Source of the DNA: Thermoplasmata archaeon
GTDB taxonomy: Archaea > Thermoplasmatota > Thermoplasmata > Thermoplasmatales > Thermoplasmataceae
DNA: 27,955 nucleotides
Reading direction: 5' to 3'
Assembly: GCA_021826795.1 (NCBI GenBank)
Contig: JAKAYM010000009.1
Span: 1 to 27,955, forward strand
A program made the position numbers and the translations under genes. Shown here one piece after another: positions 161 to 13,333 of this stretch; the first letter of the stretch is position 1, and every line of letters starts with the position of its first letter. The notes below the pieces were generated by a model, which saw only the letters and a list, made by a program, of their open reading frames with translations, did not search any database and was not told the origin of the DNA.

Positions 161-649
161 TCAGACGTCTGGTACAAAATAAACATCGGTAGTGTTGTAC
201 TTAAGCCATTTTCTAAACTTCGCCTTCACTGGCATACCTATGTATATATCATCCTTCTCTGCCTCGATCAATCTGGACATAAACAACGAATCAATTCCAT
301 CAAACTCAACCATAACAAGATTGAATGGCGTTTCGTTCAGGAATTCTTCACCACTAAAATAGCATGTAGTCCACGAATGTATTTTTCCTGATAGAGGCAG
401 TTCTATCCATTTTGTTTCATTACCACACATCATACAGTGACCACGTGGCGTAGCATATTTATATCCACATTTTGTACACTCGCTGCCCAGTAACTGTTTT
501 TTGCCTAGGGCTCTAAAAAATTCGGAGTCCTGTGCATAGCTGTGTATATAATCAACGTCATAATGCCATTTTATTACTAGAAGGTCTGTGTTGTACACTT
601 CTGTTCCATTTTGCGATTCCGGTAATTTTGCATTTTTATTTATAACCAT
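161..649 (-). CDS. DUF35 OB-fold protein with zinc ribbon, partner of a thiolase-fold enzyme
   Basis: A protein of about 162 residues with the two-part layout of the DUF35 family: an N-terminal helix, a four-cysteine rubredoxin-like zinc ribbon (CTKCG and CMMCG, 15 residues between the pairs), then an OB fold ending in DVYFVPDV. DUF35 proteins bind acyl-CoA and form complexes with thiolase-superfamily enzymes. It closely resembles the product at 10411-10860, and the gene order is the same: thiolase-like gene first, DUF35 next. A GTG at 658 also opens the frame. The ATG at 649 is preferred because GGTGA lies 5 nt upstream of it, as at several other operon genes here. The gene looks intact although its upstream partner is broken, so its product may now serve the paralogous enzyme encoded at 10862-12121. 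Confidence 0.85.
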   Translation of the reverse strand: MVINKNAKLPESQNGTEVYNTDLLVIKWHYDVDYIHSYAQDSEFFRALGKKQLLGSECTKCGYKYATPRGHCMMCGNETKWIELPLSGKIHSWTTCYFSGEEFLNETPFNLVMVEFDGIDSLFMSRLIEAEKDDIYIGMPVKAKFRKWLKYNTTDVYFVPDV

Positions 650-659
650 TTTTTTCACC

Positions 660-1924
660 TCAAGATTTTACCCTTTCCATCACAGTTGCGGCAACATAAG
701 TACCTGTACCGGCATGACTGTGTATTAATCCCTTCTTTGCATTTTTAACCTGTAATGTATCATCCTGGAAATGCTTTTTAATAGTATGCTGAAGTTGCCA
801 GAATGCGTAAACTGACTGCATTATTCCAGTGGCACCAACGGGATGACCCGATGCCAGTAATCCGCCCGATGGATTAACTGCAACTTTTCCATTGAGTTTT
901 GATTTTCCTTCTTCAATAAATTTACCTCCTTCTCCATATTTACAAAGACCTAAATCCTCATATGTCTGAACTTCTGAAGATGTGTAAGCATCGTGCAATT
1001 CAACGAAGTCCAGTTCATCCAGTGGATCTGTTATTCCTGAGTTCTTATAAGCCTCCATTGCTGCCATCCTCCCTGCCCTGAATGAATGGACTCCAGGATA
1101 TTTTAGGTTTTTATAGTCAGATTCATTTTCATTTGGCAAAAGTGGAACCTTACCAAATGGCCTGTCAGATAATCTCATAGAATCTGTGCCCGTACCTATA
1201 CCGCTTATAAGTACTGGATTATCGGTAATTTTAAATGCCTCCTCTTCAGATGCAAGTATTGCAACAGCCGCTCCATCAGACATTTACATACATCTAGTAG
1301 TGTCAGAGGATATGATACCATCGGTGAATTTCTTACATCCTCAACAGTTAATTTCATGGGGCTCTGTGCATATGGATTATGTATAGCATTCCCGTGATTT
1401 TTAATAGATACTTTGGCCAGCTGCTCTACAGTTGTTCCGAACTCATACATATGTCTCATAGCCATCATAGCATAATATCCTGTATAAAATCCTCCAAGAG
1501 GATAATCAAAATTTGTATCACTTGCTAAAGCTATGAATTCATTGCCCTTCCAGGTATTTACATGAGACATTGTTTCGAAACCATAAACAGCACATGTATC
1601 CATTCTACCGGAAGCAATTTCTTCATATCCTGTCTGAAATGCTATACCACCGATAGCTCCACCGCTCTCAATACGCTTGCTGGGTTTCGGAGTTAATCCA
1701 AGGTAGTCCTGAACCATAATACCGGCCATTAATTGCCTCTGAAAATGATCCGAAAAATAAGATGCAACAGAGCCGTCTATATCACTTAAATTTAGGCCGG
1801 CGTCGTTCATTGCGTAATCAAAGGCTTTTTTTACCATTAGTCTAAAATCCATTTACGGCGATGCCTTGGAAAATTTTGTGACACCTCCTGCAACCATATA
1901 AACATTTCGTCCCTTGTATTTCAT
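660..1924 (-). pseudogene. Broken thiolase-superfamily gene (Cys-less, Ltp2-like), nonsense plus frameshift
   Basis: Translation in pieces gives a close paralog of the intact protein at 10862-12121. The first piece starts at ATG 1924 (MKYKGRNVYMVAGGVTKFSK) and meets TAA at 1853-1855, where the paralog has a sense codon. Homology resumes at once with MDFRLMVKKAF. A second lesion lies at 1284-1285: between the codons for DVC and MSDGAA only two bases remain where the paralog has three, a net loss of one base. The downstream piece (660-1283) runs on to HSHAGTGTY and TGA. Like the paralog, it lacks the thiolase nucleophile (ESGGAIGG). A TATA-like element at 1952-1960 sits about 26-30 nt before ATG 1924, so the promoter looks preserved. 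Re-initiation at the ATG directly after the stop is possible, but the frameshift would still split the protein. Confidence 0.85.
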
Positions 1925-2085: not shown

Positions 2086-4056
2086 ATGGTAAGTAAGAGT
2101 TCAGATGATAATATCGAGAGCATATTGAAACTGAGTGCTTCCTTTCCTCCATTGAAACGAAATATTAATCAAATGCAAGTTAGAGAAAAAGATTCATATA
2201 AGGATTTTTACAGGAGTTCAATTAAAAATTCATCGGATTTCTGGGGCGATGTGGCTTCCGAAATGCAATGGTTTAAAAAATGGGATAAATTAATAGATGG
2301 CTCATTTCCGGATTTCAAATTTTTTGTTAACGGTTACTCAAATGTGAGCCTTAACTGCATAGATAGATATGCGAATAAAACTCCAGGAAAGGATGCTATA
2401 ATATGGTTAAACGAACGTGGTGAGAGCAGAAGAGTAACCTATTCAGAATTAAGGGATCAAACAGGCAAATTCGCCAGTGCAATGACTATGATAGGAATTA
2501 AAAAAGGTGATGTTGTAGCAATTTTCCTCCCAAATGTAATCGAAGCATTCATTGCCGTACACGCATGTTATAGAATTGGAGCAATATATAATATTATTTT
2601 CTCCGGGTTTTCAGCTAATGCACTTAAAGAGAGATTAATTGACACAGAACCTAAAATAATTATCACAGCAGAAAACACGATAAGGAAAGGAAAAATAATT
2701 GAGTTGAAGGAGAAGATTGATTCGGTTATAGCTGATATACCAAGCATTGAAAACGTTATAGTGGTGGCTGGATATGATAAAAATAGGCGGCAAATAGGTA
2801 AAAAGGATATATTTTTTGATACTTTCATAAATAAAGCAGAAAATTCACTGGAACCACTGCCTATAGAAGCAAATGCGCCGGGTTTTATTATATATACATC
2901 AGGAACCACGTCAAAACCTAAAGGTATTGTACATTCAGGTATTGGGTTTCTAATTGGTTCATACAATAACGTGAAATACGCCCTTGATCTGGGAATGGAG
3001 GATGTATACTGGTGCACCGCTGATGTTGGATGGCTCACGTTTCCTATATTTGAACTGGTTGGTGGATTAGCTCATGGTGCAACAGTTATTGCATATGAAG
3101 GAGCACTCGATTATCCTTCAATTGATCATTTCTACAAAATAATTGAAAAATATAATGTGACAAAATTATTTACAGCTCCCACATTTCTAAGAATGCTTGC
3201 GAGGGATGGAGAAACAACGGCAAAGAAATATAATATTTCCTCCCTAAAACTTGTATCACTGGTTGGGGAACCATTAGATATCAAAACGTGGTTCTGGGTA
3301 CATAAAAATATTGGAGATGGGAATATTGAAATAAACAATACATACGGACAGACCGAAACAGGCAGTGCATGGACTTCATCGATAGTTGGGGTTACGGATG
3401 CTAGACCTGGTTCATGTGGTTTACCTTTGCCAGGACATTCGTTCAGTATTCTTGATGATAATGGGAAACCATTGCCTCCTAATAAAATAGGAACACTTGT
3501 ATTAACAGAACCGTTTCCAGGACTTGCAAGGGACATATGGAAAAACCATGATAGATTTATAAGAGAGTATTTTTCTATTTTCCCAAACAGTTATTGCACG
3601 TATGACCAGGCGGTTGAAGACAGTTTCGGGCATATCTGGGTATTAGGTCGGACAGATGATGTTATAAATGTTTCAGGGCATAGAATATCCACTATGGAAA
3701 TGGAAAATGCAGTAATGTCAGTTCCTGGTGTATCTGAGGCTGCCGTAATTGGGATAGAAGACGCTTTAACAGGCACAACTCCAGTGGTATTTGTTTCTAT
3801 TGATAAAAAATTTAATTCGGATATAAACACAATAAAAGCGATGGTAAGAGATTCCATTATAGCAGGAATAGGTTCATTCGCCAAACCATCATCCATTTTT
3901 ATAGTTTCATTTATGCCAAAAACAAGATCCGGAAAAATCATGAGAAGATTATTGCGGGAAATACTGGTGAAGCAGAGTGTTTCCGGTGATATTACCGGGC
4001 TTGAAGACCCGGAAATAATAAATAAACTCATATCCGAATTACATAAACCTGAATGA
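2086..4056 (+). CDS. AMP-forming acyl-CoA synthetase (acetyl/propionyl-CoA synthetase-like)
   Basis: A 656-residue enzyme of the ANL superfamily that activates a carboxylic acid to its CoA thioester through an acyl-AMP. The N-terminal part matches the acetyl-CoA synthetase cap. The ATP loop is YTSGTTSKPKG (270-280), with Ser where Gly is usual. Then come YWCTADVGW (308-316), NTYGQTETG (418-426), the hinge GRTDDVINVSGHR (521-533) and the C-terminal catalytic lysine K617 in PKTRSGKIMRR. Acetate-specific enzymes have Trp before QTE; here it is Gly421, which in this superfamily opens the acyl pocket to longer or branched acids. It diverges from the broken thiolase/DUF35 pair, so it may supply acyl-CoA to the beta-methyl acyl-CoA module. 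The substrate is uncertain. Confidence 0.88.
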   Translation: MVSKSSDDNIESILKLSASFPPLKRNINQMQVREKDSYKDFYRSSIKNSSDFWGDVASEMQWFKKWDKLIDGSFPDFKFFVNGYSNVSLNCIDRYANKTPGKDAIIWLNERGESRRVTYSELRDQTGKFASAMTMIGIKKGDVVAIFLPNVIEAFIAVHACYRIGAIYNIIFSGFSANALKERLIDTEPKIIITAENTIRKGKIIELKEKIDSVIADIPSIENVIVVAGYDKNRRQIGKKDIFFDTFINKAENSLEPLPIEANAPGFIIYTSGTTSKPKGIVHSGIGFLIGSYNNVKYALDLGMEDVYWCTADVGWLTFPIFELVGGLAHGATVIAYEGALDYPSIDHFYKIIEKYNVTKLFTAPTFLRMLARDGETTAKKYNISSLKLVSLVGEPLDIKTWFWVHKNIGDGNIEINNTYGQTETGSAWTSSIVGVTDARPGSCGLPLPGHSFSILDDNGKPLPPNKIGTLVLTEPFPGLARDIWKNHDRFIREYFSIFPNSYCTYDQAVEDSFGHIWVLGRTDDVINVSGHRISTMEMENAVMSVPGVSEAAVIGIEDALTGTTPVVFVSIDKKFNSDINTIKAMVRDSIIAGIGSFAKPSSIFIVSFMPKTRSGKIMRRLLREILVKQSVSGDITGLEDPEIINKLISELHKPE

Positions 4057-4151: not shown

Positions 4152-7100
4152 TTATAAATCACATTTTCCTGTCGGGCATGCGGGATCAAATGTGGCATCC
4201 AGTTTCAAAAGCTTATCAGGCATTTTCATGGTGAGGTCAATTTTTTTTTCCTCATCGCTCTTTTTCTGTCCGGTACCTGCATAGAGTACCTGCTGGCTTT
4301 TGCTTCTATCCCTGTATACTGTTATTCCCTTGCAGTGGAGTTCCTTTGCAAGGCGGTATGATTTTGCTATGTCATCCTGTGTTGCCTCGAAGGGCAGGTT
4401 TATTGTCTTTGAAACACCGGAATCACAGTATTTCTGGAATGTTGCCTGCATCAGTACATGCCAGTCCGGATCAATTTCCTGAGCCGTTACGAAGAGTTTT
4501 TTTATGTCCTCCGGTAAATCAAGATTCCCGAGCTTGCCGGTTTCTGCTATCTTTTCCATGATTTCCTGTGTAAACAGGTTTCTGGATTTCAGTGTATCCT
4601 CCAGTAGCGGATTGACCTCCAGAAGTTCCTGTCCGTTAAGCACGTGCCTTACGAATGCCAGTGCAAATAGTGGCTCTATTGAAGATGAGCATCCTGCAAT
4701 TATAGATATGGTTCCCGTGGGGGCGATTGTTGTGGTGGTTGAGTTCCTCATTTTTATTCCATTCTCCTCGTACTCCGAACCATACCATCCCGGGAAAACC
4801 CCTCTCTCCTCTGCAAGTTTCTGTGATTCAAGGTGTGATTCATCGTTAAGTGTTTTCATCACCTTTTCACCGAATTCCAGGGCCTCATTGCTGTTGTACG
4901 GTATGCCCAGCATTATAAGTGCATCGGCGAATCCCATTATACCCAGCCCTATTTTTCTTGTCTTCCTGGTCATATTCTTTATGGATTCAACCGGGAATTT
5001 ATTTGCGTCAACAACGTTTTCAAGGAATCTGGTTGCAACATCGATTGTATCCCTGTACCTGTCATAGTTAAATGTTCCATTCTCAACGAATTTTGAGAGA
5101 TTTATCGAGCCAAGGTTACATGATTCGTAAGGCAAAAGCGGCTGCTCTCCGCAGTTATGTACCACGATTCCATTAGCTACAAATGAATGAGTGGATGGTT
5201 CTACAAGATCATATACGTCATCTTTGCCTATATATTCTATATTTTCAGTTCTAGCAATCCAGTCCTCTTCCCTTGGACCGAGAGAGTAGCTATTCACAAG
5301 AGTTAGCAGTTTTGAGTTCTTTCTTTCTGATATAAATCCTATTTTATTATGGAATGTTATTGCACTTTTGCCCATTATATATAACTCATGGTATGCCTGT
5401 GTGTCATACATTTTTCGATTTCTATTCGAGTCTGGGAACATCTTAGAACCAGCTTTTCTGCGATTGAAATATATTCTACTATATATCCCGAAGTTAAGTA
5501 ATAATCCCTGAACTCCCTGTAATAACTTGGCACTTATTGATGTTAAATGTATGTGCCTTGTGCTATTGCCATATATATTTACTGTTCCATCAGCCTCAAA
5601 TAATGCCTGTAAAAAGCCTTTTTGCATTTCCATTGTACCGGCAAAAACGGTATCTGGAACCCTTAGTTTATTATTTATTAAAGCATATTCTGACGCCATT
5701 GTAATGCAGTTCCCGCTTTCAATATTCACCATTCCTATATTGTAATCACGGTTATTGGTGGACGGCCTGACTATATTGTTTACATAGTTTTCAAACTCAG
5801 GTGCAAAAGACGTATCCTGATCATGGAAAGAAAGAACAGCACGGTCGTTATTGGTCCCTTTATTTATATGTCTATCCCCTACAAGCCATCCGAGAACCCT
5901 GCCTTCCTCTAAGTTGCCATGAGGACCGAAGGATCCACCCTCGTTTAATATTCTGATTTTTTCCCCTTCTTTAAGTTTCAATGCCTCTATCCAGCCCCTC
6001 TCTTCACTGTATATTTTGTGGTCGCCTGTAACAGTGATATCAAAGCCTTCACTTGTTGTTATTCTGTATACATCCTTGAATCCGGTATAAATAACGTTTG
6101 AAGATTGTTTGAAACTGCCCCCGAATCTACCGTCAATCTTTACGTTTAAGCTTTCTCCCTCATCGTACAGCTGTTTGGCAGTTTTTATTCCTTCTGATGT
6201 GTATATTCTGGTATCGCCTGTAACGCATGGATTTGTTGACTCTATATATCCTATATTCTTTACCGGATTTTTCTTGTTGATCTCGTCAAGAAATACCATT
6301 CCGGGATCGCCAGTAGTCCATGCATGATTGACTATTGAATTCCATAAAGTTGATGCTTTTATTTTATTCATTACCTTGCCATCCCGCGGGTTGATAAGAT
6401 CTATATACTCATCGTTGTCAAGCTTCTCGAAAAATTCATCATTTACACCAACAGATATATTGAAGTTGCTCAGTATTTTGTTCTCCGCATCCTTGCTTGT
6501 TATGAAATCCATTATATTTGGATGGTTGTAGTTGAGGATTCCCATATTGGCTCCCCTTCTCTTTCCGCCCTGCTTGATTACATCGGTTGTAACATCGAAT
6601 ATTCTCATGAATGATACGGGCCCGGAAGCAACACCCTTGGTTGATGCAACGATATCATCGCTGGCACGTAACCTGGTAAACGAGAACCCGGTTCCACCAC
6701 CGGATTTATGTATTTCTGCTGTTGCCTTGAGTGTGTCAAATATAGAATCTATGCTGTCATCTACCGGAAGAACAAAGCATGCGCTGAGCTGCCCCAAAGG
6801 GCCTCCAGCATTCATCAAGGTAGGCGAATTTGGCACATATTCAAGATTTGTCATCATAGTTTCAAATCTGTCAATCCAGTAGTTTATCATTGTTTTTTTG
6901 GTCTGTATAAAATCTAGGAATTCCTCATATGTGCCATCTAGGCTCTTCTCCTGCCTGAGTTCATTGAATGCCCTCCTGAACTCTTCATCCTGGGTTTTTG
7001 TTATGCCGGTATAAACAGTCCCCTTCTCTGGAACCTTCCCTGATTTCCTGTATGATATATAATCATAAAGCCCCTGAATAATTCCGAGATGCATCGCTAC

Positions 7101-7538
7101 CCTATGGAACATCTGCTTCGGTGTTTCTATTATTTTTCCCTCTGAATCCTTGAAGAGGTATCTTGCCTCAAGAACCTTGACTGCATTCACACTCAATTTT
7201 AAATCATCCTTTACACCGAGGAATTCCTTTTCCTGTCTGACAGTATTTCTCTTTTCCCTGTAAAGTATATATGCCTTGGCAACGGATATGTATGAAGCTC
7301 CTTTAATTTTTTGTGTCATGAGCACATTTTCTACAGTATCCTGTATAACCTCAACGGTGGGTTCCTTCCCCGTTTTTTCAAGTTCTTTTGTAACGTAATC
7401 TGCCAGCTTGTTGGCCTCTTCCATGGACCCAGTTTTCACAGAGAGCATGGCCTTGAATATCGCCATTGCTATCTTTTTCTTATCAAATGGAACGCTGGAG
7501 CCGTCTCTTTTTATAACCTTATCTAAAACATTTATCAT
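4152..7538 (-). CDS. nrdJ: Adenosylcobalamin-dependent (class II) ribonucleotide reductase with intein
   Basis: A precursor of 1128 residues, about 770 after removal of the 358-residue intein. It reduces ribonucleotides to deoxyribonucleotides for DNA synthesis. An ATP-cone regulatory domain occupies roughly residues 1-90 (VIKRDGSSVPFDKKKIAMAIF). The barrel follows with LSACFVLP (one of the redox cysteine pair), SGGGTGFSF and RRGANMG. NP at 436-437 is joined after splicing to CGEQPLLPYESCNLGS, giving the N-x-C-x-E radical site. APTGTIS lies further on. The tail CPTGKC resembles the C-terminal dithiol that re-reduces the active site. No nrdB-like gene is adjacent, consistent with class II. GTGAT lies 5 nt before ATG 7538. 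It converges with the acyl-CoA ligase gene. Confidence 0.95.
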   Translation of the reverse strand: MINVLDKVIKRDGSSVPFDKKKIAMAIFKAMLSVKTGSMEEANKLADYVTKELEKTGKEPTVEVIQDTVENVLMTQKIKGASYISVAKAYILYREKRNTVRQEKEFLGVKDDLKLSVNAVKVLEARYLFKDSEGKIIETPKQMFHRVAMHLGIIQGLYDYISYRKSGKVPEKGTVYTGITKTQDEEFRRAFNELRQEKSLDGTYEEFLDFIQTKKTMINYWIDRFETMMTNLEYVPNSPTLMNAGGPLGQLSACFVLPVDDSIDSIFDTLKATAEIHKSGGGTGFSFTRLRASDDIVASTKGVASGPVSFMRIFDVTTDVIKQGGKRRGANMGILNYNHPNIMDFITSKDAENKILSNFNISVGVNDEFFEKLDNDEYIDLINPRDGKVMNKIKASTLWNSIVNHAWTTGDPGMVFLDEINKKNPVKNIGYIESTNPCVTGDTRIYTSEGIKTAKQLYDEGESLNVKIDGRFGGSFKQSSNVIYTGFKDVYRITTSEGFDITVTGDHKIYSEERGWIEALKLKEGEKIRILNEGGSFGPHGNLEEGRVLGWLVGDRHINKGTNNDRAVLSFHDQDTSFAPEFENYVNNIVRPSTNNRDYNIGMVNIESGNCITMASEYALINNKLRVPDTVFAGTMEMQKGFLQALFEADGTVNIYGNSTRHIHLTSISAKLLQGVQGLLLNFGIYSRIYFNRRKAGSKMFPDSNRNRKMYDTQAYHELYIMGKSAITFHNKIGFISERKNSKLLTLVNSYSLGPREEDWIARTENIEYIGKDDVYDLVEPSTHSFVANGIVVHNCGEQPLLPYESCNLGSINLSKFVENGTFNYDRYRDTIDVATRFLENVVDANKFPVESIKNMTRKTRKIGLGIMGFADALIMLGIPYNSNEALEFGEKVMKTLNDESHLESQKLAEERGVFPGWYGSEYEENGIKMRNSTTTTIAPTGTISIIAGCSSSIEPLFALAFVRHVLNGQELLEVNPLLEDTLKSRNLFTQEIMEKIAETGKLGNLDLPEDIKKLFVTAQEIDPDWHVLMQATFQKYCDSGVSKTINLPFEATQDDIAKSYRLAKELHCKGITVYRDRSKSQQVLYAGTGQKKSDEEKKIDLTMKMPDKLLKLDATFDPACPTGKCDL
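5154..6227 (-). mobile_element. Intein with LAGLIDADG homing endonuclease in nrdJ
   Basis: This in-frame insert of 358 residues runs from Cys438 to Asn795 of the precursor. Splicing signals are complete: Cys1 in CVTGDTRIYT (block A), TGDH at intein residues 67-70 (block B), a block F/G end in FVANGIVVHN, and Cys as the first C-extein residue. Two dodecapeptide motifs mark a homing endonuclease: VLGWLVGD at 111-118, where the usual GDG reads GDR, and FLQALFEADGTV at 205-216. Both acidic catalytic positions are present, so the nuclease may be active. The intein sits directly before the radical cysteine, so unspliced protein cannot have a normal active site. I recall an intein in the Ferroplasma acidarmanus large-subunit reductase, which supports the taxonomic guess. 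Confidence 0.93.
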
Positions 7539-7759: not shown

Positions 7760-8356
7760 ATGGACTTAGATGAATACATATCAAAATTGAAGAGCGAGTC
7801 AGCAACACCGGGTGGTGGTTCTGCCTCTGCTATTTCCTCAATGTTTTCGGCTTCCCTGAACTCCATGGCATCGCTTCTTTCTATTGGGAAAAAGAAACTG
7901 GAGGCATATAATCATGATTTTGAAGATATTTCAAGAAATGCTGTCGAAATAATAAAAAAGCTCAGGAAACTGAGCAGTGATGACGAAAGTTCATTTCTGG
8001 AAATAATGGACGCGCTTCATATGGATAGAGAAAATCCTGAAAGGAAAGATATGCTTAATAAGGCTATAAAGAAAAGTGTGTATATATCATGGAGGATAGC
8101 CGGAATATCCATGGATAATCTGAATAATTCCCTATTCTTATGCAGGTATGGGAACAGGAATCTCATCACTGACAGTATATCTGCAGGGTACATGTCATAT
8201 ACAGCAATACATACATCTATCAATAATATCAGAGTAAATTTGAAAATACTGAGAGACGTTGAATATATGTACGGAGAATTGATAAAAATTAAACTATTCA
8301 TGGAAGCTGTGGAAGAAACCATAAGAGTGATTAAAGAAATGGAAGATGCATTATAA
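7760..8356 (+). CDS. Cyclodeaminase/cyclohydrolase family protein (FTCD C-terminal domain type)
   Basis: A 198-residue helical protein with the family's N-terminal signature TPGGGSASA (residues 16-24). It corresponds to the cyclodeaminase half of formiminotransferase-cyclodeaminase without the transferase half. Stand-alone members act as methenyl-THF cyclohydrolase (FchA) or formimino-THF cyclodeaminase. Formate-THF ligase lies 42 nt downstream on the same strand, which favours a cyclohydrolase role interconverting 10-formyl- and 5,10-methenyl-THF. The alternative, use in histidine breakdown, has no supporting gene here. The 5' region 7539-7759 is very AT-rich, with two copies of AATATATAAT (about 7671-7680 and 7691-7700) that could serve as TATA elements. 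Which one is used is unclear. Confidence 0.8.
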   Translation: MDLDEYISKLKSESATPGGGSASAISSMFSASLNSMASLLSIGKKKLEAYNHDFEDISRNAVEIIKKLRKLSSDDESSFLEIMDALHMDRENPERKDMLNKAIKKSVYISWRIAGISMDNLNNSLFLCRYGNRNLITDSISAGYMSYTAIHTSINNIRVNLKILRDVEYMYGELIKIKLFMEAVEETIRVIKEMEDAL

Positions 8357-8398
8357 GAAGAACAAAAATCTTTACTATTAATACTCTATATATGATTT

Positions 8399-10012
8399 AT
8401 GTTAAAAGATATTAAAAATATCCTTGAAGACCTAGGAATTAGCGATTATGAATTATATGGTAAATACGCTGCCAAGCTCGGAATTTCAAATACTATTCCC
8501 GGCAAGAAGCAGAGTAAAATTATATTGATGACCGCAATGACTCCGACACCTGCGGGGGAAGGTAAAACCACCACTGCTATAGGTCTTACACAGGCACTGA
8601 AACAGATTGGAAAAAATGTGGGCATAGCAATAAGAGAACCTTCGCTTGGACCATGCTTCGGCGTAAAGGGTGGTGCAACCGGAGGAGGAAAATCCACTGT
8701 GGAGCCTTCGGATAAGATAAATCTAATTTTTACTGGGGACTTCCCCGCAATATCTGCTGCACATAATCTGCTCTCTGCCATGATTAATAATCATATATAT
8801 TATGGAAATGAATCTGGAATCGATCCGAAGAAAATTGCATTTCCAAGGACAGTTGATATGGATGACCGTTCACTCAGAGCCATTATTGTCGGAAACGGCT
8901 CCAGGATCAATGGTATTCTGGCAAATGATTCCTTTGTGATCACTGCAGCCTCAGAAATAATGGCAATATTGGCATTATCCAAGGGTTATGAAGATTTGAA
9001 GGAAAGACTCGGGAATATAATTATCGGGTACACCATAAAAAATAAACCTGTTTTTGCAAAGGATATAAAAGCAAATGGAGCCATGGCGGCACTGCTTGCC
9101 GATGCGCTAAAACCCAATTTAGTGCAGAGCGTGGAAAACGTTCCGGCAATTATACATACCGGGCCGTTCGGCAACATAGCACATGGAACATCCAGCATAC
9201 TGGGAGATTATGCTGCAATGAATTTATTCGATTATACGGTAACAGAGGCGGGCTTCGGATCCGATCTAGGCTTCGAGAAGTTCATGGACATATTTACCAG
9301 AGAGGCAAACATAGGTGTGGATGCTGTTGTAATAGTTGCCACCATAAGGGCTATGAAACACCACGGCGGGGCCAGTAATATAGATAAAGAGGATATCACC
9401 GCACTGGAAAGTGGTTCTGAAAACCTGCTGAGGCATATTGAAAATGTAAGGAACTTCGGAATAGAACCTGTTATAGCCCTTAACGTACATTCTCTGGATA
9501 CAGATAGGGAAATCAGAACAATTTCTGAAATACTTGAAAAGAAACGTATAAAATATGCTATTTCTCGGGTGTATTCTGATGGGGGTAAAGGGGGAATAGA
9601 ACTGGCGAATGCCGTGCTTGATTCCATAAACCGCAATAAAATAAAGTATGCATACTCGCTGGATGATTCCATCAAAATAAAGATAGAGAAAATAGCCACA
9701 AAGGTATACGGTGCAGATGGAGTGGATTTTTCTAAAGACGCACTGATGGATATAAAACATGCTGAGGATAACGGCTTCGGCGGATTTTATATATGCATGG
9801 CAAAAACCCAGTCATCGATTTCCGACAATCCGGGTCTACTCAACTCTCCGAAGAATTTCAGGGTAAAAGTTAATTCAATTATGGTAAATGGGGGTTCACA
9901 TTTCATTATTCCAATACTTGGGAATATCATGACAATGCCAGGATTGCCGAAGCACCCTGCAGCAGAGCATATAGATATAGACAGCGCTGGAAACGTAACC
10001 GGACTTTCATGA
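8399..10012 (+). CDS. fhs: Formate-tetrahydrofolate ligase
   Basis: A 537-residue enzyme that joins formate to tetrahydrofolate with ATP, making 10-formyl-THF. The nucleotide loop PTPAGEGKTTT is at residues 49-59. Other conserved stretches include GPCFGVKGGATGGG, the FTGDFPAISAAHNLL region and GGAxGG-like loops typical of the family. Bacterial enzymes are about 555 residues, so this one is slightly short but complete. It follows the cyclodeaminase-family gene by 42 nt, and the two probably form a one-carbon module supplying purine and thymidylate or methyl-group synthesis. It may also have its own promoter, since an AT-rich stretch (8371-8393) lies just before the ATG. Confidence 0.95.
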   Translation: MLKDIKNILEDLGISDYELYGKYAAKLGISNTIPGKKQSKIILMTAMTPTPAGEGKTTTAIGLTQALKQIGKNVGIAIREPSLGPCFGVKGGATGGGKSTVEPSDKINLIFTGDFPAISAAHNLLSAMINNHIYYGNESGIDPKKIAFPRTVDMDDRSLRAIIVGNGSRINGILANDSFVITAASEIMAILALSKGYEDLKERLGNIIIGYTIKNKPVFAKDIKANGAMAALLADALKPNLVQSVENVPAIIHTGPFGNIAHGTSSILGDYAAMNLFDYTVTEAGFGSDLGFEKFMDIFTREANIGVDAVVIVATIRAMKHHGGASNIDKEDITALESGSENLLRHIENVRNFGIEPVIALNVHSLDTDREIRTISEILEKKRIKYAISRVYSDGGKGGIELANAVLDSINRNKIKYAYSLDDSIKIKIEKIATKVYGADGVDFSKDALMDIKHAEDNGFGGFYICMAKTQSSISDNPGLLNSPKNFRVKVNSIMVNGGSHFIIPILGNIMTMPGLPKHPAAEHIDIDSAGNVTGLS

Positions 10013-10410: not shown

Positions 10411-10860
10411 TTAGGCAGGGACAAAATAAACATCATTGACCGTGAAACTCTGGAATTTTTTGAACTGTGCTACTATGTCCATGCCGATTTCTGGTTTTTC
10501 TCCATCGTTTATAAAAAGCCGGGACATGAAGAGAGAATCCACACCGGGGAATTCCACCAGTACTAGTGTGTACGGAACATCTCCCCTGAAAGTTTCCCCG
10601 GAATAATAGCATGTTGTGAATGAATGAACTTTACCATGCAGTGGAAGGTCCATATCATCGGTCTCTGATCCGCAATACATACAGTATTTCCTGTATGTGC
10701 CATATTTGAAGCCACAGGATTTACATTTTGAACCGAGGAGTCTGCCCCTACCAAGTGCTATGAAGAATGGAGAGTCTTCTGCATAGCTGTGCCTATATTC
10801 AATATTATAATTCCACTCAACCACAACAGGATCTATCTTAAGCAATCTTCCGTATCCCAT
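10411..10860 (-). CDS. DUF35 OB-fold, zinc-ribbon protein (acyl-CoA module)
   Basis: A 149-residue protein with zinc-ribbon cysteines CKSCG and CMYCG followed by an OB fold ending NDVYFVPA. It is a close paralog of the product at 161-649. It is the last gene of a three-gene operon, starting 2 nt after the thiolase-fold gene's stop codon ends; GGAGG near the end of that gene serves as its ribosome-binding site. DUF35 subunits are required by several thiolase-superfamily enzymes. In Ltp2-ChsH2 the DUF35 domain completes a retro-aldolase, and in methanogens a DUF35 protein bridges thiolase and HMG-CoA synthase. Because the neighbour lacks the catalytic cysteine, the aldolase analogy fits better. 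Confidence 0.9.
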   Translation of the reverse strand: MGYGRLLKIDPVVVEWNYNIEYRHSYAEDSPFFIALGRGRLLGSKCKSCGFKYGTYRKYCMYCGSETDDMDLPLHGKVHSFTTCYYSGETFRGDVPYTLVLVEFPGVDSLFMSRLFINDGEKPEIGMDIVAQFKKFQSFTVNDVYFVPA

Positions 10861-10861
10861 T

Positions 10862-12121
10862 TTAAACCGCCTCCATGATAGTTACTGCCTCATATGCTCC
10901 TGTTCCCGCATGGCTGTGTATAAGCCCACTCTGTGGATTTTTTACCTGAAGTCTGTTACTGCCGAGATGTTTATGCACCGTTTCTTGGAGTTGCCAGAAT
11001 GCATAAACAGCCTGCATTATTCCAGTGGCCCCGATTGCATGGCCAGAAGCTTGCAACCCTCCCTCCATGTTGACGGGTATATCACCATCCAGCATTGACC
11101 TACCGTCCTCTACGAATTTTCCACCCTGACCATACTGACAGAATCCCATATCCTCGTATGCCTGTATCTCAGCAGATGTATATGCATCATACAGTTCGGC
11201 AAAGTCAATTTCTTTTTCAGGGTTTGTTATGCCGGCTTTCCCGTATGCCATCCTTGCTGCAAGCCTGCCTGCACGGAATGAGTGGACTCCCGGATATTTC
11301 AGATCCCTGTACATATTATCATTCTCATTGGGTAACAGAGGCACCTTTCCGAAAGGTCTGTCTGCCAGACGCATTGTGTCGCTAGATGAACCTATGGATT
11401 TTATCAGAACTGGCTTTCCTGAAAATGATTTTGCAACCTCTTCTGAGGCGAGTATAGCGCAGGCAGCACCATCTGACATTAGGCATATATCTAGCATTTT
11501 TATGGGACTTGAAACTACAGGGGATTTCAGCACGTCCTCAACTGTAATATCCATGGGTGCCTGTGCGTATGGGTTACGCATTGCATTTCCATGATTCTTG
11601 ACGGAAACCATTGCCATCTGTTTTTCCGTTGTTCCGAACTCATACATGTGCCTCGTCGCCATCAGAGCGTAATATGCAGTATAAAACCCCCCAAGCGGGT
11701 AATCGAAGCTAGCATCACTTCCAAGTGCTATTATATCGTTTCCATGCCATGTGCCCACATGCGACATATTTTCAAATCCATATGCTAGGCAGGTATCCAT
11801 GGTACCTGATGCTATCTCCTCGTATGCTGTTTGAAAAGCAAGACCCCCGGTAGCACCTCCGCCCTCTATTCTCTTTGACGGCTTTCCTGCTAATCCGATG
11901 AAATCGTTTGACATTGCTCCTGCTATGAGTTGCCCCTGTAGGTGGTCTGAAAAATATGCAGACACAGAACCATCTATATCCTCTGTTTTCATGCCCGAAT
12001 CTTTTAGAGCATAATCGAGGGAATGTTTTACATTTAATCGAAAATCGTCATTGAAATTTATTTTTTTAAACGGAGTCATGCCTCCTGCAATCATGTAAAC
12101 CTTTCTATGATCATCTGCCAC
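10862..12121 (-). CDS. Thiolase-superfamily protein lacking catalytic cysteines, probable Ltp2-like aldolase
   Basis: A 419-residue thiolase fold of the MTPF/SCP-x-like archaeal branch. The nucleophile motif reads EGGGATGG (86-93), with Gly89 where thiolases have Cys. GHAIGATG keeps the catalytic His361. The C-terminal CxG-type motif is HSHAGTGAY (402-410), with His in place of the second Cys. Conserved tyrosines lie in YDAYTSAE (Tyr311, Tyr314) and at Tyr410. Thiolysis by the normal mechanism therefore looks impossible. The steroid aldolase Ltp2, which also lacks the nucleophile and works with a DUF35 partner, is the nearest functional parallel I know. The GTG at 12121 is chosen over the GTG at 12130: GGTGA lies 5 nt before it, and the seven residues before VYM match the paralog's spacing. 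It overlaps the dehydrogenase gene by 11 nt, implying coupled translation. Confidence 0.85.
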   Translation of the reverse strand: MADDHRKVYMIAGGMTPFKKINFNDDFRLNVKHSLDYALKDSGMKTEDIDGSVSAYFSDHLQGQLIAGAMSNDFIGLAGKPSKRIEGGGATGGLAFQTAYEEIASGTMDTCLAYGFENMSHVGTWHGNDIIALGSDASFDYPLGGFYTAYYALMATRHMYEFGTTEKQMAMVSVKNHGNAMRNPYAQAPMDITVEDVLKSPVVSSPIKMLDICLMSDGAACAILASEEVAKSFSGKPVLIKSIGSSSDTMRLADRPFGKVPLLPNENDNMYRDLKYPGVHSFRAGRLAARMAYGKAGITNPEKEIDFAELYDAYTSAEIQAYEDMGFCQYGQGGKFVEDGRSMLDGDIPVNMEGGLQASGHAIGATGIMQAVYAFWQLQETVHKHLGSNRLQVKNPQSGLIHSHAGTGAYEAVTIMEAV

Positions 12122-13250
12122 TATTATCACCCCTGTATTTTTTTATCAGTGCCTCGCTGATCACTTTTTTCCTGATTTCGTTAGTGCCAGCACCGATTGT
12201 TAAAAGTATAGAATCCCTGAAAACCCTCTCTATTTCGAAATCTTTTATGTATCCATAACCCCCGAAAATCTGAAGTGCTTCCCTTGCTATATACTCAGAT
12301 GATTCAGATGCGTACAGAATAGCGGATGCCGCATCAAGCGAATCCATTCTATCATTTTTAACCCTTTCCAGTGCCTCTATAGCAAAAAGTCTAGAAGATT
12401 CAAATTTTGTGTACATATATGCAAGCTTTTCCTGAACCAGCTCGAAATCGCTTATGGGCCTTCCGAACTGCTTCCTTTCCGATGCATATAATACTGCAAG
12501 GTCCAGTGCCCTTCTTGCTATTCCAATTGCATTGAATGATAATACTGCCCGTTCAAGATTTAAACCACTCAGCAGAACCTTCTTACCACCATTTAAATCT
12601 CCGACAACTCTCTCAGGCCCAAGCCGGATATCGTTGAAGAAAATTGTTCCAGTGGGTGATCCACGCATGCCGGTTTTATCAAATTCCTGCCCCCTAGAAA
12701 AGCCCCTATCGGTAGATTCCACGACAAAGGGAGTGATGTCTTTCCCGGTGCGTGCGTACACCAGGAATACATTTGCATATGGTGCATTTGTAATGAATGT
12801 CTTGCTTCCGTTAAGTATAAAATTTTCAGAATCCTGATCTGCTGTTGTTTTCATGGAAAGTGCATCCGATCCGGAAGAAGGCTCTGTCATTCCGAGGGAG
12901 CCTATAGTGTCACCGGAACACAGACCTGGCACATATTTTTCCCGCAAAGATTCTGAGCCATTTCTGTAAAGATTATCAAGGCATAGATTGCTGTGGGCCC
13001 CGTATGAAAGTCCGAGAGACCCGGATGCATAGCTTATCTCTTCTTCTATAAGTGCCTGTGAAAGATAATCGGAACCGGAACCACCGTATTCTTCAGGGAT
13101 TGTCACACCTAAATATCCCTCCTTGCCCATTTTCCTGAAAAGATCAGCGGGAAAGAAGTTCTCACGATCCATTTTCACTGCTACAGGCATGATTTCTTTT
13201 CTTGCAAATTCTTTTGCACTCTGCTGAATCATCAAATATTCGTCCTTCAA
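12111..13250 (-). CDS. Acyl-CoA dehydrogenase, isovaleryl-CoA dehydrogenase type
   Basis: An FAD flavoprotein of about 379 residues that makes an alpha,beta-double bond in acyl-CoA. It carries the isovaleryl-CoA-dehydrogenase signature SYGAHSNLC. The catalytic base is in the helix motif SGLNLERAVL (Glu233), while the position used by short- and medium-chain enzymes is Ala (TIGAGTNEIR), exactly the isovaleryl-type swap. GMTEPSSGSD and FGGYGYIKDF are family-typical. The frame stays open to 13331, but that start lies upstream of the TATA box at 13281-13290. TTG 13250, with AGGTG 5 nt before it, is preferred; ATG 13232 is the alternative. It is first in the operon with the thiolase-fold and DUF35 genes. 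Likely substrates are isovaleryl-CoA or other 3-methyl-branched acyl-CoAs. Confidence 0.88.
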   Translation of the reverse strand: MKDEYLMIQQSAKEFARKEIMPVAVKMDRENFFPADLFRKMGKEGYLGVTIPEEYGGSGSDYLSQALIEEEISYASGSLGLSYGAHSNLCLDNLYRNGSESLREKYVPGLCSGDTIGSLGMTEPSSGSDALSMKTTADQDSENFILNGSKTFITNAPYANVFLVYARTGKDITPFVVESTDRGFSRGQEFDKTGMRGSPTGTIFFNDIRLGPERVVGDLNGGKKVLLSGLNLERAVLSFNAIGIARRALDLAVLYASERKQFGRPISDFELVQEKLAYMYTKFESSRLFAIEALERVKNDRMDSLDAASAILYASESSEYIAREALQIFGGYGYIKDFEIERVFRDSILLTIGAGTNEIRKKVISEALIKKYRGDNSGR

Positions 13251-13280
13251 CTGTACACCTGTTAAAATTATGTTTACAAT

Positions 13281-13290
13281 ATATATAAAT
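13281..13290 (-). promoter_or_regulatory. TATA box of the dehydrogenase/thiolase-fold/DUF35 operon
   Basis: ATTTATATAT on the minus strand places transcription initiation near 13259, about 9 nt before TTG 13250. This rules against the longer start at 13331. Confidence 0.55.
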
Positions 13291-13333
13291 ATGCACTGCA
13301 GAGAAAAAATAGATGCAATTATCCATTTCAAAG

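Follow-up and report, generated by a model that had tools for sequence, protein, structure and literature searches.

A cysteine-less thiolase-fold protein of the PRK06365 family in a Thermoplasmata archaeon: DUF35 gene pairing and linkage to a B12-dependent acyl-CoA mutase

Introduction

What can a thiolase-fold protein do once its catalytic cysteine (Cys) is gone? Thiolases make or break carbon-carbon bonds through an acyl-coenzyme A (acyl-CoA) enolate and an acyl-enzyme formed on a Cys. The question is raised by a gene on contig JAKAYM010000009.1 (assembly GCA_021826795.1) of a Thermoplasmata archaeon, of which we analyzed a stretch of 27,955 nucleotides (i.e., the window). A preliminary description of this DNA had proposed a thiolase-like protein without catalytic Cys, encoded next to a DUF35 gene and resembling the aldolase Ltp2. 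Here, we assign the protein to PRK06365 (NF004982), which on the evidence of its sequences is a widespread and strictly conserved family of Cys-less thiolase-fold proteins. We also report a tie between this family and a B12-dependent acyl-CoA mutase that carries isobutyryl-CoA-mutase residues. Loci and genomes are designated by L and G numbers.

Results

Active site of the thiolase-fold protein

The gene, previously reported without a strand, is intact (419 to 422 amino acids) and lies on the minus strand. Its open reading frame spans 10862..12130 (stop at 10862), while the plus-strand translation of the same coordinates is riddled with stops. The gene and its neighbors are as follows.

10862..12121, minus strand: Cys-less thiolase-fold protein of the PRK06365 (NF004982) family; 419 amino acids from the ATG at 12121, with a GTG at 12130 as a possible start
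10411..10860, minus strand: DUF35 partner with a zinc ribbon (C-x2-C-x10-C-x2-C) and an OB fold, 1 base after the stop of the thiolase-like gene
12111..13331, minus strand: acyl-CoA dehydrogenase, overlapping the start of the thiolase-like gene

This overlap probably entails translational coupling. The protein matched NF004982 with 684.5 bits over residues 5-421 (curated cut-off, 695), and the next family scored 337 bits. In NCBIfam, PRK06365 is an equivalog named "thiolase domain-containing protein," with no function given.

Residues were compared in alignments that took in MTTL, BbsB, zebrafish SCP2-thiolase, Ltp2, Sal, and classical thiolases (the main alignment has 33 rows), and conservation was scored on 71 aligned family members and 19 outsiders. 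The codons of interest are listed here.

11855..11857, minus strand: Gly89, in the place of the nucleophilic Cys according to alignments with Cys thiolases; Gly in 71/71 family rows
11189..11191, minus strand: Tyr311 (YDAY), in the place of the classical Asn, the SCP2-type His, and the catalytic base Tyr of Ltp2/Sal
11183..11185, minus strand: Ala313, in the place of the Cys of HDCF and of the His/Cys of YDHF/YDCY
11039..11041, minus strand: His361 (GHAIGATG), the conserved catalytic His of thiolases; Tyr in Ltp2 and Gln in Sal
10910..10915, minus strand: Ser403 and His404 (HSHAGTG); Ser403 occupies the alignment column of the classical C-terminal Cys, and His404 is family specific

The motif EGGGATGG indeed lacks a nucleophile: Gly89 stands where MTTL, BbsB, SCP2, and classical thiolases carry Cys, and Ltp2 and Sal have Gly at this place as well. 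Its invariance across the family agrees with the earlier view that the loss is a family trait and not an error. The histidine of GHAIGATG is retained, as had been stated, in all 71 members. The proposed replacement of the C-terminal Cys by His proved to be off by one residue, since the classical Cys aligns with Ser403 and with neither His402 nor His404. Among the 7 Cys-bearing rows of the 33-row alignment, this place is occupied by Asn (5 rows) or Val (1 row), with no letters in the last; thus, no Cys was lost there relative to the closest relatives. Ser403 is invariant in the family (71/71), and His404 is found in 71/71 members versus 0/19 outsiders. The second Cys of SCP2-type thiolases (HDCF) corresponds to Ala313. 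Ala is also found there in the Cys-bearing proteins 7yvy and BbsB, and 7yvy likewise has neither second Cys (CxG or HDCF). The oxyanion-hole residue (i.e., Asn in classical and His in SCP2-type thiolases) corresponds to Tyr311. Position 311 is His in 62 and Tyr in 9 of the 71 members, placing the window copy in the small Tyr group; this copy shares the motifs and the DUF35 neighbor of the family but differs from most members by Tyr311 and by Ala362 (most have Pro).

Conservation within the family reaches at least 97% at 20 positions whose residues occur in at most 1 of the 19 outsiders (including His60, Tyr147, Tyr150, Arg251, Asp254, and His404; Tyr147 and Tyr150 are found in 71/71 members). 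Together with Gly89, this strict conservation argues for a maintained active site and not for decay. An AlphaFold2 model built from 10 sequences was poor (predicted local distance difference test score, 59.5).

The protein therefore combines a thiolase fold and a GHP-type His with the absence of both the nucleophilic and the second Cys (Ser403 and Ala313). Thiolysis is unlikely, because Gly89 replaces the nucleophilic Cys, just as Gly does in the aldolases Ltp2 and Sal. Relatives are named "thiolase domain-containing protein," "acetyl-CoA C-acetyltransferase," or "propanoyl-CoA C-acyltransferase" in databases. Judging from the residues, which do not fit a thiolase, the last two names would be wrong, in line with an earlier warning against an acetyl-CoA acetyltransferase annotation.

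A protein search found 4516 relatives among 7998 scored candidates, presumably including thiolases of other families, and 120 of these were listed. A pattern scan of one genome per species gave at least 589 matches, at least 581 of which encode a relative, and the best 80 loci were analyzed. Their titles place them in Thermoplasmata, Nitrospirae, Deltaproteobacteria, Chloroflexi, Planctomycetota, Acidobacteria, Methylomirabilota, Bacillota, and other groups. Within the genus of G001, 9 of 10 genomes carry one full-length member, and 1 of 10 carries none.

Linkage to a B12-dependent acyl-CoA mutase

Near the family gene, the best 80 loci contain the small subunit of a B12-dependent acyl-CoA mutase in 19 cases (14 directly upstream) and the large subunit in 18, in every case encoded on the strand of the family gene. 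Among the 14 family loci of the phylum of G005 (46 genomes searched), 11 have both subunits immediately upstream. L125, one of the remaining three, is at a contig edge; the mutase of L127 lies 2.7 kb upstream on the strand of the family gene, and that of L128 lies on a separate contig. The position of the mutase varies (mostly upstream, downstream in L044), and this difference in gene order between loci suggests that the genes are tied by function and not by a single inherited order. L045 and L050 each carry seven consecutive genes: thiolase, 3-hydroxybutyryl-CoA dehydrogenase, acyl-CoA dehydrogenase, mutase large subunit, mutase small subunit, Cys-less thiolase, and DUF35 (identities by homology cluster, with cluster representatives annotated).

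The specificity of acyl-CoA mutases is set by two contact places, occupied by Phe and Gln in isobutyryl-CoA mutase, while methylmalonyl-CoA mutase has the triple Tyr/Ala/Arg, in which Arg binds the carboxylate. At the three substrate-contact residues, 17 of the 18 linked mutases carry Phe/Ala/Gln, the triple of the solved isobutyryl-CoA mutase IcmF (4xc6), and therefore have the Phe and Gln expected of this type; L040 carries Tyr/Ala/Gln. The linked mutases share this triple with IcmAB/IcmF; most consist of separate large and small subunits, and the one of L039 is fused. Two other types were considered and rejected. The 2-hydroxyisobutyryl-CoA mutase 4r3u was the best match of L029 (the one tested), but it has Ile/Asp/Gln instead of Phe/Ala/Gln; a methylmalonyl-CoA mutase would have Arg, not Gln, at the third contact place. 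A Tyr/Ala/Arg mutase is the best split mutase in G006 (L132) and the best mutase in G111 (L222), which lacks the family; it is also the type of the second mutases in G003, G069, G109, and G158 (L140 and L261-L263), the only genomes in which second mutases were typed. Of the bacterial family genomes, G003 thus has both types, and G006 has a split Tyr/Ala/Arg and a fused IcmF-like mutase.

In the archaeal class of G001 (150 genomes sampled), 44 genomes have the family, 89 have an acyl-CoA mutase, and 43 have both. The mutase is present in 43/44 family versus 46/106 non-family genomes (Fisher's exact test, P = 2e-11, not corrected for kinship). The best mutase carries Phe/Ala/Gln in all 42 family genomes typed (G092 is untyped and G192 has no mutase), three of which also carry a Tyr/Ala/Arg mutase (L261-L263). 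Further mutases typed in this class (L194-L223) have Phe/Ala/Gln in 29 of 30 cases. Since 46 of the 106 non-family genomes also have a mutase, the dependence is one-way (i.e., the family implies the mutase). A literature search largely without subscription papers found no publication joining isobutyryl-CoA mutase with DUF35, and the publications best matching the search subject, most subscription papers being outside the search, did not mention an acyl-CoA mutase. Within the literature searched, the tie described here is new.

Gene pairing with DUF35 and other neighbors

The product of 10411-10860 matches OB_ChsH2_C and zf-ChsH2 above cut-offs, confirming the DUF35 neighbor already noted beside the thiolase-like gene. 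The gene arrangement proposed by analogy with Ltp2 is also borne out beyond the window: a DUF35 gene lies directly downstream in 74 of the best 80 loci when recounted without gene calling (gene calling alone gives 54 at +1), in 33/33 archaeal loci, and in 13/14 loci of the phylum of G005, the 14th (L117) being at a contig end. With an acyl-CoA dehydrogenase adjoining the gene, the layout in the window resembles that of the Ltp2 operon.

An acyl-CoA dehydrogenase is found within a 1.5-kb flank in 8/8 archaeal loci with Tyr311 versus 9/25 archaeal loci with His, and crotonase-type hydratases are present in 7/7 archaeal genomes searched. CoA-transferase subunits occur in 7 of the best 80 loci each (the one tested is glutaconate CoA-transferase-like), and an acetoacetyl-CoA-synthetase cluster occurs in 4, directly upstream in 3 (one tested). 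Although the loci are few, these neighbors would suit the release of a 3-oxo acid, as in 3-hydroxy-3-methylglutaryl-CoA (HMG-CoA) lyase chemistry. In L029 (12102-13986), from an anammox Scalindua, the same strand runs on into genes for a 3-keto-5-aminohexanoate cleavage enzyme and a 3,5-diaminohexanoate dehydrogenase (lysine fermentation).

Phylogenetic position and comparison with known systems

Understood as kinship, the label "Ltp2-like" was not upheld by phylogeny. In the 33-row tree, PRK06365 forms its own clade of 14 rows (support, 100/100), which is marked by the invariant set G89, H361, and HSHAGTG (71/71). This clade lies outside an aldolase clade (100/100) of Ltp2, IpfD, 4u4e, and Sal together with L086, L088, L089, and L090 (archaeal or plasmid; YDxF/Y motifs). 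The approximately unbiased (AU) test rejected the grouping of the family with Ltp2 and IpfD (P = 0.0005) and with the Sal set (P = 0.0003), but it did not reject joining the family to the MTTL group (P = 0.22) or to ST0096 (4yzo) and L094 (P = 0.41). A common side for the family and the whole aldolase clade, opposite the Cys thiolases, is neither supported (69/35) nor rejected. The tree requires at least 3 changes of the Cys/no-Cys state, and both one loss of Cys and independent losses by the family and the aldolase clade fit it.

The window copy resembles Ltp2 and Sal in having Gly for the nucleophilic Cys, the Tyr of YDxF/Y (Tyr311), and an adjacent DUF35 gene; it differs in Ala313 for the third-residue His/Cys, in His361 for Tyr344/Gln352, and in belonging to neither clade. 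Identity to Ltp2 in the Ltp2-ChsH2(DUF35) complex (6ok1) is 24% in a structural alignment; the GHP His is Tyr344 in Ltp2, and the His of its YDHF motif is Ala in the window protein. The bile acid aldolase Sal-Shy(DUF35) (9myr) has, according to PMC12329534, an essential Cys304 in YDCY whose change to Ala abolishes activity, a Gln352, and a C3H1 zinc site; the window proteins have Ala, His361, and a C4 pattern, respectively. The ibuprofen retro-aldolase IpfDE falls in a clade separate from PRK06365. MTTL (6esq/6et9), the archaeal acetoacetyl-CoA thiolase of the HMGCS-DUF35 complex, has a Cys nucleophile and an HMG-CoA synthase partner, and the window gene has neither.

A second, frameshifted copy

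The window contains remnants of another member of the family.

1205..1852, minus strand: N-terminal piece of a broken family member (HDAY lineage); 91.5-93.1% identity to its five best relatives (including Thermoplasma acidophilum) and 68.6% to the main copy
660..1283, minus strand: C-terminal piece of the broken member; 84.5-86.4% identity to its five best relatives and 66.3% to the main copy
161..658, minus strand: DUF35 partner of the broken copy; 54% identity to the other DUF35 over 139 residues

The preliminary description had ascribed the same replacements to both copies. ESGGAIGG and HSHAGTG are present in the broken copy, but the active sites differ (YDAY/GHAIG in the main copy, HDAY/GHPVG in the broken one). 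HDAY/GHPVG is the pattern of most family members, and the best relatives of the broken copy are Thermoplasma/Cuniculiplasma-type HDAY proteins. The broken copy has the look of either a member that was acquired separately and has since been frameshifted or a sequencing error. Judged by identity, it backs the motif as a family trait and is not a duplicate of the main gene, since it is 84-93% identical to its own relatives versus 66-69% to the main copy.

Other genes of the window and other Cys-less thiolase-like genes

The window contains no mutase gene, and no steroid or aromatic genes were recognized in it. An acetyl-CoA-synthetase-like ligase gene (2086-4056, plus strand; 702 bits to NF001208) is divergent from the broken copy; family members in L063 and L073 are likewise flanked by ligases of the acetyl-CoA-synthetase class (acetoacetyl-CoA synthetase type in L063). 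Positions 7760-10012 (plus strand) encode, by eye, a formiminotransferase-cyclodeaminase-type protein and a formate-tetrahydrofolate ligase, convergent with the DUF35 gene, and genes with lengths matching this pair (198 and 537 amino acids) adjoin the family gene in L001. A ribonucleotide reductase of 1128 amino acids (4152-7538, minus strand) has an insert starting with CVTGDT and ending with VHNC, which by eye we take to resemble an intein.

Thiolase-like genes without the nucleophile were also met outside PRK06365. In Thermoplasmatales, the nucleophile place of a mevalonate-operon thiolase is occupied by Thr in L104-L113 (10/10 genomes of the genus of G001) and by Ser in L092 (1988-3160), and the GHP His of this thiolase is changed to Asp or Tyr. 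The operon in L087 (2849-4030; the one tested) consists of HMG-CoA synthase, thiolase, and DUF35. With the nucleophile missing from this thiolase, the source of acetoacetyl-CoA in these archaea becomes a question. Cys-less genes with YDSF/YDDF motifs in L088 (1860-3011), L089 (2931-4205), and L090 (2503-3702), also Thermoplasmatales, fall on the Sal side of the tree. Each of these loci has a short gene showing a DUF35-like zinc pattern, and the two loci tested for it (L088 and L090) have an acyl-CoA ligase. A thiolase-like gene of Peptococcaceae bacterium CEB3 (L094, 2853-4046) has Pro at the nucleophile place, lies beside a DUF35-like zinc pattern, and groups with ST0096 of Sulfolobus tokodaii (4yzo), which has Ser there.

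Discussion

We give about an even chance to the reading that the window protein, as a member of PRK06365, is a Cys-less, DUF35-assisted carbon-carbon lyase in branched acyl-CoA metabolism. Such an enzyme would have abandoned the half of the thiolase reaction that proceeds covalently through Cys and kept the enolate half. Together with its DUF35 partner, the protein would bind a CoA thioester, hold the acyl-CoA enolate in an oxyanion hole made with His361, and make or break the carbon-carbon bond with no acyl-enzyme intermediate involved. Acting degradatively, it would carry out retro-aldol cleavage of a 3-hydroxyacyl-CoA to an acyl-CoA and an aldehyde or ketone. Candidate acid-base groups are residue 311 (His in most members, Tyr in the clade of the window copy), His404, His361, and Tyr314. 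The enzyme would act in branched short-chain acyl-CoA metabolism alongside the acyl-CoA dehydrogenase and the B12-dependent isobutyryl-CoA-type mutase. We propose aldol or retro-aldol chemistry because it is the reaction of the Cys-less DUF35 relatives to which one has been assigned: Ltp2 and Sal are described as demonstrated retro-aldolases in PMC12329534, and IpfDE is held to be one in PMC9195938. The acid-base residues of Ltp2 and Sal are not conserved in PRK06365; if it is an aldolase, the family would carry out a similar type of reaction with a residue set of its own.

Several observations weigh against this proposal. PRK06365 lacks or has altered the acid-base residues proven in Ltp2 and Sal (Ala313 and His361), and the Tyr essential in Sal is missing from 62 of the 71 members. 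Six of the best 80 loci have no clear DUF35 gene directly downstream: none was found in L018, L035, and L046, it lies 7 kb on in L024 and 2.9 kb on in L025, and L027 has only a 31.6-bit match. Five of the six are Nitrospirota by title, and all six are mutase linked. MaoC hydratases, the kind paired with Ltp2 and Sal, were found in just 1 of 7 archaeal genomes. The mutase is also common in genomes without the family, its cooccurrence within the phylum of G005 alone is not significant (14/14 versus 25/32; P = 0.08), and the Thermoplasmatales loci read have it away from the family gene. Finally, the linkage fits an enzyme acting before or after the mutase, and the context does not reveal the substrate.

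Four other explanations were weighed. The protein might be a catalytically inert subunit that scaffolds DUF35, the dehydrogenase, or the mutase. Such a role is conceivable for the Cys-less thiolase that Thermoplasmatales keep in the HMG-CoA-synthase/DUF35 operon, but in our judgment the 71/71 conservation of Gly89, His361, Ser403, His404, Tyr147, and Tyr150 exceeds what a scaffold needs, and we consider this explanation unlikely.

We find it slightly harder to credit a CoA-thioester decarboxylase, in which two thiolase-fold histidines would decarboxylate a malonyl-type CoA ester in place of the nucleophile's chemistry. The KSQ domains of polyketide synthases, in which Cys is replaced by Gln, are decarboxylases, and the residue logic is the same here (oxyanion-hole His kept, Cys lost). 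The linked mutases have Gln, not Arg, at the place that binds a carboxylate, which argues against dicarboxylic CoA esters in the pathway. According to PMC12329534, the Cys-less TbSLP slowly decarboxylates malonyl-CoA (kcat, 0.005 per s, as quoted there), while Sal, also Cys-less, showed no such activity.

The protein could still be a thiolase or acyltransferase that works with a different nucleophile or by transferring the acyl group directly from one CoA ester to another. Ser403 and Thr91 do provide hydroxyls at or beside the two Cys places, but we know of no thiolase that uses hydroxyls there, and the nucleophile place is Gly in every aligned member; we therefore regard this explanation as improbable. 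A genuine steroid or sterol-side-chain aldolase of the Ltp2/Sal type that had spread to archaea, suggested by the change of Cys to Gly, the YDxY motif with its base Tyr, and the DUF35 and acyl-CoA dehydrogenase neighbors, is highly improbable and already disfavored by the AU tests (P = 0.0005 and 0.0003), by His361 in place of Tyr344/Gln352, by Ala313, and by the His that most members have at the Tyr place.

The reading as a DUF35-assisted lyase can be extended, speculatively and with a low probability, to a pathway. In this scheme, the PRK06365-DUF35 pair would be the entry enzyme of an oxygen-independent route by which archaea and anaerobes process branched acyl chains, isoprenoid or gem-dimethyl. 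The pair would cleave a 3-hydroxyacyl-CoA that is refractory to beta-oxidation and release isobutyryl-CoA or a fragment ending as such, and the B12 mutase would convert isobutyryl-CoA to butyryl-CoA, which would then pass to the dehydrogenase, 3-hydroxybutyryl-CoA dehydrogenase, and thiolase encoded alongside in one operon. If so, the entry enzyme would do for isobutyryl-CoA and the mutase what IpfDE and Ltp2 do for propionyl-CoA, and the pathway might recycle archaeal membrane lipids.

At least 581 loci in bacteria and archaea encode relatives. Such proteins are named thiolases or acetyltransferases, although the residues analyzed here do not fit ordinary thiolase chemistry. The family would extend the Cys-less thiolase-DUF35 enzymes beyond the degraders of steroids and ibuprofen; its active site carries different replacement residues, and its linkage to the mutase provides a concrete and testable lead to the pathway in which it acts.
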